From: Thermodesulfobacteriota bacterium
Lineage (GTDB): Bacteria > Desulfobacterota > BSN033 > WVXP01 > G020346125
Direction of reading: 5' to 3'
DNA: 35,162 nucleotides
NCBI GenBank assembly: GCA_030145085.1
Contig: JAQYWG010000008.1
Location: forward strand, 1 to 35,162
Both the position numbers and the translations under genes were made by a program. The notes under the pieces are model-generated. The model saw only the letters and a program-made list of their open reading frames with translations, ran no database searches and had not been told where the DNA came from. This document shows, in pieces, positions 2,990 to 26,900 of this stretch. Within the stretch, counting starts at the first letter, position 1. Every line of letters starts with the position of its first letter.

Positions 2990-2998
2990 GTGCTTCGG

Positions 2999-3130
2999 TC
3001 ATGCGGTGTTGCGGTGCTGCAGTCGAGTAGGTTGGAGGTTTGAGGGTAGAGGCTGAAGAGTGCAGCACGATAGCACCCACCTCTCGTCAGATTTATCCTC
3101 CAACCTCCTACCTCTAGCCTCTAACTTTCC
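2999..3130. repeat. Intergenic low-complexity repeat cluster 1
   Basis: The gap before recG holds degenerate repeats of two families. One is GCGGTGCTGCAGT-like (about 3001-3025, and inverted at 3060-3077). The other is GGTTGGAGGTTTGAGGG-like (about 3029-3055, and inverted at 3096-3128). Two perfect inverted pairs are visible: GTGCTGCA at 3014-3021 with TGCAGCAC at 3061-3068, and AGGTTGGAGG at 3029-3038 with CCTCCAACCT at 3097-3106. The pairs interleave, so both stems cannot form in one simple hairpin. No gene is seen here. Confidence 0.75.
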
Positions 3131-3221: not shown

Positions 3222-5696
3222 ATGGCCGAATGGGGCCATATCGTCCGGGCGATAACGAAACCGCTTAGTTTCGCTTCGAAGAACGGATTTGCCAACCTCC
3301 CGCAGGTGAAGGGGCTGGAGAAGCTGATCGCGGGCCTCGGTCATCGAGCCCTTTCGATGGATCTGGCTCCTTTCCAGAAGCGGCTGATCCGTGAGTTGCT
3401 GGAAGTCTTTTCCGGTTTCGAAGGCTCGCCGATTGAGGAGAAGAAGGAACGCATCGCTCGATCGATGAGGATCATGATGGAAATAGAAAAGGTTGAGGTT
3501 AAGGCTGAGGGGAGAAGGGAGAATGAAGAATTAAGAATTAAGAGTGAAGAGGGAAGAAGGGAGGGAGAGGAGAAGGAGAAGGTTAGGGGTAAGGCCGGGG
3601 TCCTCTCCCAACCGATACAATTCGTCAAAGGCGTGGGCCCGAGGATCGCAAAGAAGTTGGAGAAAAAGGGGATAACGACCATTGAGGATGCTCTCTATTT
3701 CTTGCCCCGGAGGTATGAAGACCGAAGGGTCATCAAGAAGATCTCGCAGATTCAGGTGGGGAAGGTGGAGACGGTACTGGCCCAAGTGCTGTTGGCGGGA
3801 ACCGTTTTCTATAAGGGCAATAGGAAGAGGGTCTTCGAGGTCATTGTAGGAGATGAGACGGGGACCCTCACCCTGAAATGGTTTCACGGCAGCGAGGAAT
3901 ATCTCAAAAGCCGGTTCAAAAAGGGGCGGCGTGTCGTCATATCTGGCGAGGTGAGGCTTTTTAAATCTCAGAAGGAAATGCATCACCCGGACATGGAGAT
4001 AGCCGATCATATCGAGGATGACCCACTCCATTTCAAGAGGATCGTACCCATTTACTCCGAGCCAGAAGGGCTTTATCAGAAGACAATCCGAAAAATCATG
4101 AAGGGAATCATTGAACACTATGCCCATGAGCTCACCAGTGCCATCCCGGAGGATATTACCCGGCGCCAGGGGTTGATGGATTTCGGGGAGGCTATCAGAC
4201 AAGTTCATTTCCCCTCGGAGGATGTCTCCTTGGAGAAATTTAACCTCAACCTATCCGATGCTCACAGGCGGATCGTCTTCGACGAATTTTTCTTCCTGCA
4301 ATTAGGACTAGCCCTGAGGAAAAGCGCGGGCAAGGCGGAGCAGGGGATCCCCTTCCAAATCCTCCACGGGTATACCCAGAGGCTTCTCCAATCCCTGGAT
4401 TTTCGGTTGACTCCTGCCCAGGAGCGAGTTCTCTCGGAAATCGAAGAGGATATGAGGCAACCCCACCCCACGAATCGTCTCATTCAGGGGGATGTGGGGA
4501 GCGGAAAGACCATTGTGGCCCTTATGGCCGCCCTTATCGCCGTGGAGAATGGCTTTCAAGCAGCTTTCATGGCCCCTACCGAGATTCTGGTCGAACAGCA
4601 TTTCCTGAACATCCGTCGGCTGGTCAGGCCATTGGGAGTTCGGCCGGTTCTGCTGACCAGCAACGTCAAAGGTTCGGAAAGAGAGGAGATTCAGCAGTCC
4701 ATCTCCTCTGGCGAGGGGCAAATTATTATCGGGACACACGCCCTGATTCAGGAACATCTCCATTTTCATAGGCTTGGCTTGGTGGTCATCGACGAGCAAC
4801 ATAAATTCGGCGTCATCCAGAGGGCCAAGTTGAGAATGAAGGGGATAAACCCGGATGTCCTAGTGATGACCGCTACCCCTATTCCTCGAACCTTGACCCT
4901 CACCCTGTATGGGGATTTGGCCATCTCCATTATCGACGAATTTCCCCCGGGTAGGGTTCCCGTGGAAACGAGGCTCTATTACGAAAGGTCAAGGCCTAAG
5001 GTATACGAGCTCGTGAAGGAGGAGATCAGGAGGGGACGGCAGGCCTTCTTGGTGTATCCCCTGGTTGAAGAGTCCGATAAGGTGGACCTCCTGGACGCCA
5101 CCCGAATGGCCGATCATCTCCAAAAGGATATCTTCCCCGAATTCAGGGTGGGCTTAATCCATGGTCGGATGAAGGGGGAGGAAAAGGAGGAGTTGATGGT
5201 GAAATTCAGGGATGGTCAGATCGATGTCTTGGTGGCTACCACGGTGATCGAGGTGGGCATTGATATCCCTAATGCCTCGGTGATTTTGGTGGAGCATGCC
5301 GAACGATTTGGGCTTCCCCAGCTTCATCAGCTCAGGGGGAGAATCGGTAGGGGGAGATATCCATCCAAGTGTCTGCTGCTGGCCCAGTATCGGAGATCCG
5401 AAGAAGCCAGGCGGAGGTTGAGGGTGATGGAGGAAACAAGCGATGGATTTCGAATTGCCGAGGAGGATTTGTCCATACGGGGCCCAGGAGATTTTCTGGG
5501 CACAAGGCAATCGGGCCTCCCGGATTTTCGTGTGGCCAATATCATGCGGGATGGGAAAATCCTTAACCAGGCTCACCAGGAGGCCTTCTCGCTGGTGGAG
5601 ACGGATCCGGATCTCTCCCAGCCAGGCCACCGCCCTTTGACGAGAGTCCTCAGGGAGAGGTGGAAGGATCGACTTGAATTGGCTAGGGTGGGGTAG
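3222..5696 (+). CDS. recG: ATP-dependent DNA helicase RecG
   Basis: RecG is a monomeric SF2 helicase that remodels stalled replication forks and branched recombination intermediates. The protein has an N-terminal helical extension of roughly 90 residues and a charged low-complexity linker at about residues 90-125. The wedge domain follows, starting with FVKGVGPRIAKKLEKKGI. The helicase core has Walker A GDVGSGKT (about 423-430), DEQH (about 523-526), TATPIPRTL and RGRIGRG. The C-terminal element RGPGDFLGTRQSG is diagnostic. At 824 residues it is longer than the usual ~690, because of the extension and linker. ATG 3222 has only a weak GGGGGC ribosome site. The next gene, hom, follows after 9 bp. 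Confidence 0.95.
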   Translation: MAEWGHIVRAITKPLSFASKNGFANLPQVKGLEKLIAGLGHRALSMDLAPFQKRLIRELLEVFSGFEGSPIEEKKERIARSMRIMMEIEKVEVKAEGRRENEELRIKSEEGRREGEEKEKVRGKAGVLSQPIQFVKGVGPRIAKKLEKKGITTIEDALYFLPRRYEDRRVIKKISQIQVGKVETVLAQVLLAGTVFYKGNRKRVFEVIVGDETGTLTLKWFHGSEEYLKSRFKKGRRVVISGEVRLFKSQKEMHHPDMEIADHIEDDPLHFKRIVPIYSEPEGLYQKTIRKIMKGIIEHYAHELTSAIPEDITRRQGLMDFGEAIRQVHFPSEDVSLEKFNLNLSDAHRRIVFDEFFFLQLGLALRKSAGKAEQGIPFQILHGYTQRLLQSLDFRLTPAQERVLSEIEEDMRQPHPTNRLIQGDVGSGKTIVALMAALIAVENGFQAAFMAPTEILVEQHFLNIRRLVRPLGVRPVLLTSNVKGSEREEIQQSISSGEGQIIIGTHALIQEHLHFHRLGLVVIDEQHKFGVIQRAKLRMKGINPDVLVMTATPIPRTLTLTLYGDLAISIIDEFPPGRVPVETRLYYERSRPKVYELVKEEIRRGRQAFLVYPLVEESDKVDLLDATRMADHLQKDIFPEFRVGLIHGRMKGEEKEELMVKFRDGQIDVLVATTVIEVGIDIPNASVILVEHAERFGLPQLHQLRGRIGRGRYPSKCLLLAQYRRSEEARRRLRVMEETSDGFRIAEEDLSIRGPGDFLGTRQSGLPDFRVANIMRDGKILNQAHQEAFSLVETDPDLSQPGHRPLTRVLRERWKDRLELARVG
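3489..3597 (+). repeat. Intergenic-type repeats embedded in the recG coding sequence
   Basis: Inside recG the DNA reads GGTTGAGGTTAAGGCTGAGG (3491-3510), then GAATGAAGAATTAAGAATTA (3521-3540) and a purine-only stretch to about 3597. The first element is the same family as the intergenic repeats at 20727-20775 and 26607-26836. The segment is in frame and encodes a Glu/Lys/Arg-rich linker between the N-terminal extension and the wedge domain. Confidence 0.75.
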
Positions 5697-8114: not shown

Positions 8115-8358
8115 AATCAATGCCAAAGGCCAAATGTCAAAGTTCAAATGTCAAATGGCTGATGAGGAATAACAAAGGAACACCAGCACTGTTCACGAAC
8201 ACGTGAATCAACGCCAAATGACAAATATATGATAACGAATACCGAGTAACGAATCACGGACACGGACACGCTCCACGAACACGGAACACACGGACACGGA
8301 CAACGCGTCACGGGCTCGGAATATCACGGATACGGAACACGCTTCACGGACACGCGCG
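8115..8358. repeat. Intergenic low-complexity repeat cluster 2 (upstream of acuC)
   Basis: The 245-bp gap holds three repeat styles in sequence. CAAATGTCAAAG-like units occupy about 8124-8157. GCCAAATGACAAATAT lies at 8213-8228, next to ACGAATACCGAGTAACGAATC. CACGGACACGGACACG-like units run from about 8252 to 8358. The last array reaches the start codon of the following gene, leaving no Shine-Dalgarno sequence. I see no gene, RNA or conventional promoter here. Confidence 0.8.
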
Positions 8359-20659: not shown

Positions 20660-20830
20660 GAAGATTGGTGCTGCAGTGCTGCGGTTGGACCCGGAAAGAG
20701 GTTTGAGGTTAGAGGGTAGAGGCCAAGGCTCAGGTTAAGATTGAGGATAAAGGGAAGGTTGAGGTTGAGAAATAGTGCTGCGGTTGACCGCACATACTGA
20801 GGTTCACGATACTGAGGGGGAGCGTGTGAT
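20660..20830. repeat. Intergenic low-complexity repeat cluster 4 (before ptsH)
   Basis: This gap contains GGTGCTGCAGTGCTGCGG (about 20668-20685), GAGGTTTGAGGTTAGAGGG (about 20699-20717), a GGTTAAGATTGAGG/GGTTGAGGTTGAG run (about 20727-20775) and GTGCTGCGGTTGACCGCAC. The last carries an inverted TGCGGT/ACCGCA. A short direct repeat ATACTGAGG occurs twice, 6 nt apart, near 20797-20820. No gene is seen. A clear ptsH promoter could not be assigned. Confidence 0.75.
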
Positions 20831-26603: not shown

Positions 26604-26900
26604 TCAGGTCAAGGGTGAGGTTAAGGTTAAGGCTAAGGTTAAGGAAAAGTGAGTGCTGCGGTCTTGCAGTTCTGCGGTGCTGCAGTCGGAGCGGTAAGAT
26701 GCCCGAGGTTCAGCTTAAGGCTAAGACTGAGATATGAACTAAATCAACCAAATGGACGGAATAAACCAGACAAACCAAACAAACATAAAAAAACGAGATA
26801 GATAAGCAGGCTGAGGTTAAGGTTGAGGCTGAGAATGGAGAGTAAGCAGTATGGAGTATGGAGTAGGCGGTAGGCAGCAGGCAATGGGCAGGGTAAGGGA
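26604..26900. repeat. Intergenic low-complexity repeat cluster 5 (largest in the window)
   Basis: Four families follow each other. GGTTAAGGTTAAGGCTAAGG runs lie at about 26607-26646, with more at 26703-26733 and 26808-26836. GTGCTGCGGTCTTGCAGTTC-like units lie at 26650-26697. ACCAGACAAACCAAACAAAC lies within about 26734-26790. GCAGTATGGAGTATGGAGTA followed by GGCGGTAGGCAGCAGGC lies at about 26845-26885. Unit spacing is irregular and copies are degenerate, unlike CRISPR. The ORF track start at 26851 for the next gene lies inside this array and is spurious. Confidence 0.85.

Follow-up and report, generated by a model that had tools for sequence, protein, structure and literature searches.

The window analysed here, meaning the whole stretch of 35,162 nucleotides, is contig C469 of the 3.14-Mb draft genome G000. 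At positions 3222..5696 of the forward strand it carries recG, taken with its N-terminal extension, which encodes a protein of 824 amino acids (P0001) recognised by its Pfam and 1gm5 matches. The Pfam domains are RecG_wedge (4.2e-31, residues 131-297), DEAD, Helicase_C and RecG_dom3_C, and this succession of a wedge, an SF2 helicase motor and RecG domain 3 places the protein among the RecGs. The T. maritima RecG 1gm5 was matched by sequence with E=2.9e-163 and was also the top fold match in the PDB.

Residues 1-88 (3222..3485, forward strand) form an N-terminal extension that is predicted to fold as a helical bundle. In an AlphaFold2 model built with 25 RecGs, this bundle is confident (pLDDT of about 90 over residues 10-90), the values fall below 50 at residues 95-124 and the wedge is again confident. 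The extension ends in ...MRIMMEIEK, the wedge side starts with LSQPIQFVKGVGP, and the linker lies between them; the conserved RecG core begins with the wedge domain (residues 127-297; 3600..4113, forward strand). Differences between the extensions of G000 and G001, a genome of the same genus, are distributed as 9/10/31 over codon positions 1/2/3, which indicates that the extension is translated and constrained. According to the part of PMC7889586 that cites Wen 2005, the N-terminal extension of the Aquifex RecG is dispensable for activity. Together with the predicted low-confidence stretch between two folded domains, this suggests that the linker would be a place where added sequence is tolerated.

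The linker comprises 37 residues (89-125; 3486..3596, forward strand) and reads VEVKAEGRRENEELRIKSEEGRREGEEKEKVRGKAGV; its delimitation is based on a vocabulary score, on the match to the intergenic element D1286 described below, on shuffles and on the AlphaFold2 model. An initial annotation of the window had described a repeat-coded linker of about 36 residues between the extension and the wedge, in frame and free of stops. We found both of its words, GGTTGAGGTTAAGGCTGAGG and GAATGAAGAATTAAGAATTA, where they had been reported, and the 824-residue frame runs through the block between residue 88 and the Pfam wedge without interruption. Only the limits given at the time (3489-3597) are better drawn at 3486-3596. 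The DNA is ordered as a hexamer block, a heptamer block and a purine-rich stretch. The hexamer block AGGTTGAGGTTAAGGCTGAGG (3490..3510, forward strand) matches the pattern AGGYTRAGGYTRAGGYTRAGG exactly. The heptamer core GAATGAA-GAATTAA-GAATTAA-GAGTGAA-GAGG (3521..3552, forward strand) codes for NEELRIKSEE; it recurs in every recG of the genus (four genomes) and, in G001, also at several intergenic sites near recG.

This periodicity is not expected by chance. The array at 3507-3563 passes a threshold that was reached in none of five Markov (base-step) shuffles of the window. Seven periodic arrays with 6/7/8-nt units exceeded the threshold in the window versus 0 in each of the five shuffles, and 400 kb of G001 contained 31 (0 or 1 in shuffles). 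Throughout the window and these 400 kb, recG was the only coding sequence with periodic arrays; two blocks lay inside coding sequence in G001, both in the recG linker. We also scored genes with 7-mer log-odds of intergenic versus coding sequence, trained without recG. The linker reached 31.2 in the window, the highest value of any gene, followed by 19.0 for a weakly supported and 12.5 for a well-supported gene. It was likewise the top gene score in G001 (41.1), where the runner-up (39.6) is a weakly supported small gene. The recG linker is built from hexamer and heptamer words of the intergenic regions of the genus. A plasmid search yielded nothing informative.

Four intergenic regions of the window contain linker-type words (about 2990-3130, 20699-20770, 26606-26644 and 26808-26833). 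The first of these is the second repeat cluster which the initial annotation had placed upstream of recG and which is indeed present at about 2990-3125. Tandem Repeats Finder (TRF) and a repeat search delimit it to 2990..3130 (no strand assigned); it begins with octamer GTGCTGCG words, after which AGGTTGGAGG-type words at 3029-3053 and at 3095-3125 form an imperfect inverted pair. This pair upstream of recG (3029-3125) is made of a purine and a pyrimidine array, and a related arrangement is conserved in G001. Repeat and pattern searches also detected arrays of linker-type hexamers, AGGTTAAGGTTAAGGCTAAGG and similar, at 26612..26833 on the forward strand. A different repeat vocabulary is used at 8253-8354, where an array of units of about 36 bp (CACGGACACGGAACACG words) lies between two genes. 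A search of G000 with the pattern AGGYTRAGGYTRAGGYTRAGG returned 14 hexamer clusters (0 matches for the reversed control pattern), three of which are in coding sequence, namely in recG, rplC and rplJ. The remaining clusters have no supported coding frame, precede the likely start of a gene or lie between genes, like the two other clusters of the window. These coding counts refer to sampled stretches and pattern searches.

The kinship between the linker and intergenic DNA extends beyond single words. The linker of the window aligns to the intergenic element D1286 of G001 over 108 bp with 81% identity (E=3e-26). Its best alignment score against six intergenic composites was 116, compared to a mean of 38.9 and a maximum of 63 after shuffling the order of its 7-nt units (0/200 reached 116). 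The maxima of the other shuffles were 59 (6-nt), 90 (14-nt) and 105 (21-nt blocks), and again 0/200 each reached 116. Since all unit-order shuffles remained below the observed score, the linker and the intergenic copies have word order in common and not composition alone. By its words and by their order, the linker therefore belongs to the intergenic heptamer/hexamer family of the genus.

In G001, heptamer modules are concentrated in 48 kb around recG (G001:C1 1243039-1290570), where they recur as parts of a composite of several hundred bases; this suggests local copying. As 11 of the 13 heptamer-core matches of G001 fall within these 48 kb, it may be asked whether the heptamer module was born inside recG, where it would be open by origin, and was copied out to the nearby intergenic DNA. 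Such an outward copying would fit two observations: the recG frame stays open throughout D1286, and the core is conserved in recG of four genomes. On the other hand, the hexamer and the other words of the composites are intergenic genome-wide and also enter unrelated genes. Arrays of comparable heptamers are found elsewhere in the phylum, in other families and at a distance from recG. Moreover, the intergenic composites are for the most part interrupted by stops in the sense strand: only 15/806 windows of 111 bp were open in sense, compared to 277/806 in antisense. For the heptamer module, copying from intergenic to coding DNA is the more probable direction, and we regard an origin inside recG as unlikely. 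That the coding copies are nevertheless all in sense and open points to a selection of frame and strand.

The genus is represented by G000 and three other genomes, G001, G002 and G003. In all four, the linker is in frame and contains the common heptamer core, with different words around it. Its length is 37 residues in G000, 74 in G003, 62 in G001 and at least 53 in G002, where the contig ends. The part of RecG that follows the linker has exactly 697 residues in each of the three genomes compared (G000, G001 and G003), with identities to G000 of 98.6% in G003 and 88.6% in G001; the N-terminal extension is 73% identical between G000 and G001. The alignment of close relatives, which had been proposed as a check, thus revealed conserved flanks and a linker whose length and repeat words differ in every genome. 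The G001 linker contains two copies of the heptamer core and reads NEELRIKNEELRIKSEE. Here, three 7-nt units amount to 21 nt and hence to seven residues.

A variable, charged linker could also have arisen by ordinary protein evolution, that is by selection for a Glu/Lys-rich helical spacer with local codon slippage, in which case the likeness to intergenic words would be a purine-rich convergence. The initial annotation had named a conserved linker peptide with unrelated codon usage as the mark of such a history. Instead, the codons of NEELRIKSEE are identical at 10/10 positions between G000 and G001, compared to 75% for identical residues elsewhere in recG. Because 16 of the 245 comparable ten-residue windows elsewhere in recG also have all codons identical, the codon test of the core is not decisive on its own. 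Ordinary evolution is further opposed by the use of codons seldom found elsewhere in recG (TTA 2%, AGT 5%, AGA 10%), by a 7-nt period that is not a codon multiple, by a core that is identical at synonymous sites across species, and by an ordered identity to intergenic copies that exceeds unit composition. It speaks for ordinary evolution that Glu/Lys tails are common in proteins and that distant RecGs with the extension also carry variable linkers. On balance, we consider it an unlikely and disfavoured account.

The genomes compared are without exception drafts or scaffolded assemblies, whose contigs frequently terminate in these repeats, as in G002 and G003. The linkers might accordingly be artefacts of chimeric assembly at repeats. 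In the G003 contig (G003:C148, L006), the DNA upstream of residue 52 is unrelated to recG, and the junction is likely an assembly chimera or a rearrangement. The linker, however, lies inside continuous open frames of the separately binned genomes G000, G001 and G003 (in G002 the frame is available only from inside the linker), contains a common core and always has a length that is a multiple of three, and rplC and rplJ show a matching pattern. Chimerism as the source of the linkers is thus extremely unlikely.

More distant RecGs indicate what may have preceded the repeats. In family f3 of the same class, most RecGs have no extension, with about 12-20 residues ahead of the wedge. Distant RecGs which keep the extension mostly have short, variable and non-conserved linkers unrelated to the repeats. 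As a variable linker is found at the same place in these proteins, the repeats would have enlarged or replaced an old linker and not made one from nothing. An empty site in recG was not found in any of the four genomes of the genus, so that the insertion itself was not caught; the polarity for recG rests on the other families and on the pncB case described below.

Further coding cases were obtained from a scan of an additional 325 kb of G000 and G001 and from a search of the genus with the hexamer pattern. A peptide search of the genus with the translated hexamers proved insensitive, with rplC escaping detection, and the DNA pattern search was used instead. The ribosomal protein L3 (rplC) is extended at its C-terminus by a tail of (V/A)(E/K) residues that AGGTTAAGGCTGAGG words encode. 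After the motif VPGWRNG, 72 residues follow in G000, 110 in G002 and 136 in G001. Among the five relatives in which this motif could be located, 13-20 residues follow it, with 18 in G004, a member of the same order. The long tail is thus present in three genomes of the genus and the end is short in G004. The tail loci, L186:10417-11427 (G001) and L228:1-241 (G000:C332), code for Glu, Lys, Ala and Val with intergenic-type hexamers. The ribosomal protein L10 (rplJ) also has a repeat-coded C-terminal tail, directly before rplL, at L334:3472-4155 (G000:C22) and L344:1-210 (G003:C35). It comprises about 48 residues in G000 and is longer in G003, where it consists of 42-bp units. Outside G000 and G003, only the L10 of G004 was followed to its C-terminus, and it has no tail; the L10 frames of other families are mostly shorter, though open-frame lengths vary there. 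Within the genus, the hexamers of the recG linker hence also encode the C-termini of L3 and L10, as tails of variable length. Across the linker and both tails, Val is encoded by GTT in 25/27 and Ala by GCT in 25/35 cases (genome-wide 23% and 15%), a near-exclusive usage that again argues against ordinary protein evolution. A HpaB-like protein of G003 (G003:C26, L343 near 2686-2718) has a short repeat-coded KAKAKAKVKAKGKG end. An array in the open frame of PBP1A (G000:C199) was rejected as coding as it lies before the likely start.

Searches for NEELRIK-like peptides in 297 and 395 genomes of the phylum mostly returned stop-bearing intergenic arrays or ordinary coiled coils whose DNA has no 7-nt periodicity. 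Several such coiled coils are in line with ordinary evolution of Glu/Lys-rich helices. The same searches, however, detected a gene which we take, from reading its sequence, to be the nicotinate phosphoribosyltransferase gene pncB of G127 (family f41; L203:487-1710, with L222-L224). It contains the heptamer-coded GEELKVKSEELRVKSEEE in a C-terminal zinc-ribbon loop. A related insert is present in pncB of G095, which belongs to the same genus as G127, while G227 and G248 of the sister genus have QSAPEG only. For pncB, an empty site is thus available for repeats entering coding DNA. In G162, a CAAGAAT array that precedes the gene of a CAAX-type protease was rejected as coding. In G227, a heptamer array bridges two genes, running from the end of argH into the beginning of the following gene (G227:C134, L272, near 1965-2030), where the repeats may supply a stop codon; this argH/peptidase array was not counted, being located at a gene end and start.

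Together, these data make it likely that the recG linker is a copy of the intergenic composite of the genus, with its hexamer and heptamer blocks, which was placed in frame in an already variable and tolerant linker before the four species diverged and was then remodelled by gain and loss of blocks. The repeat origin of the linker DNA, its in-frame state, its fast length change by whole codons and the recurrence in other genes are shown here. For RecG, the additional residues probably amount to a flexible spacer that is tolerated and has no specific function. We propose that intergenic repeat blocks enter genes or grow inside them. The blocks may be copied from one repeat to another by template switching or gene conversion, with slippage in addition. 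Selection would then remove frameshifts, stops and unfavourable frames, and sense insertions with an open frame would be kept at tolerant linkers and ends. In the frame that is kept, GTT GAG GCT AAG reads V E A K and AAT GAA GAA TTA AGA ATT AAG reads N E E L R I K; such frames would yield a soluble, charged peptide that is helix-prone or disordered.

The initial annotation had also proposed that the repeats invade coding DNA at tolerant linkers and create new protein sequence. This reading is supported, and the cases of rplC, rplJ and pncB speak for it as a general claim. It has to be qualified in that an old linker was enlarged or replaced in recG, and in that copying by template switching or local expansion fits as well as a transposon-like invasion. 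A discrete non-autonomous transposon (MITE or RPE-like) that inserts into genes would explain why the block order of the composites is common to different loci, as expected of a copied element, and Rickettsia palindromic elements (RPEs) provide, in the section of PMC10969869 devoted to them, a precedent for in-frame insertion. Yet neighbouring copies match over different parts of the composite only and have variable ends, inspection by eye gave no evident constant termini, terminal inverted repeats or target duplications, and an Rfam search of the window returned one tRNA only and no match for the linker repeats. We consider a discrete transposon unlikely.

RPEs, which according to the passage on Ogata et al. 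2000 in PMC10969869 lie in frame in protein-coding genes, are the closest precedent for in-frame repeats in genes and differ in structure. As in the RPEs described there, the repeat DNA is also found between genes and in frame in unrelated housekeeping genes, and the peptide is added at tolerant places; the recG block is open in four genomes and coincides with the linker of low AlphaFold2 confidence. The RPEs of that account are palindromes of about 150 bp in defined families with a conserved peptide, whereas the blocks described here are mosaics built from degenerate words of 6 and 7 nt, and sister species differ in the length of these mosaics. Judged on size and peptide, a fixed element was not found, since the linker is 111 nt long in G000 but 222 nt in G003, consists of purine-rich direct-repeat words and has only the core in common between species.

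Intergenic heptamer repeats are described in Xanthomonas (GGGAATC, of which 7-11% overlap an ORF) and Nostoc (GGGGA(C/T)T) (PMC4692102), and the TAACTGA repeats of Beggiatoaceae carry stops which limit them in coding DNA (PMC4679880); in these reports, only a minority of the repeats lies within genes. Coding LSSRs favour unit lengths divisible by three, as far as Mrazek 2007 is quoted in the papers on intergenic heptamers. The repeats described here resemble those of Xanthomonas, Nostoc and Beggiatoaceae in being heptanucleotide direct repeats concentrated between genes. Unlike in the Xanthomonas, Beggiatoaceae and LSSR reports, the 7-nt words in recG, which alternate between variants, combine into a single long open frame. 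As in simple-sequence contingency loci and coding SSRs, a change in repeat number alters a gene; in contrast to contingency loci, there is no frameshift switching, the linker lengths differ by whole codons and the genes concerned are DNA-repair and ribosomal genes. Our literature search, which had incomplete coverage, returned no report of degenerate hexamer/heptamer mosaics that code for parts of RecG or ribosomal proteins, which is weak evidence of novelty.

It may be speculated, tentatively and with somewhat less than even confidence, that non-coding repeat blocks continue to flow into the essential proteins RecG, L3 and L10 by template-switch copying of mosaic hexamer/heptamer blocks, repeatedly supplying new charged peptide. 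On this view, the words have by chance a single frame that is free of stops and hydrophilic, and intergenic DNA could be a reservoir of ready-made linkers and tails, in which three 7-nt units would give a heptad of seven residues. In this uncultured bacterium it is possible to trace how non-coding repeat DNA becomes part of proteins, and this in the constrained genes recG and those of two ribosomal proteins. The species of the genus are close enough (98.6% RecG identity after the linker) to follow single steps. The origin of bacterial linkers and tails thereby becomes directly testable, and a second type of repeat, structurally unlike the Rickettsia elements, appears to have been recruited into proteins.
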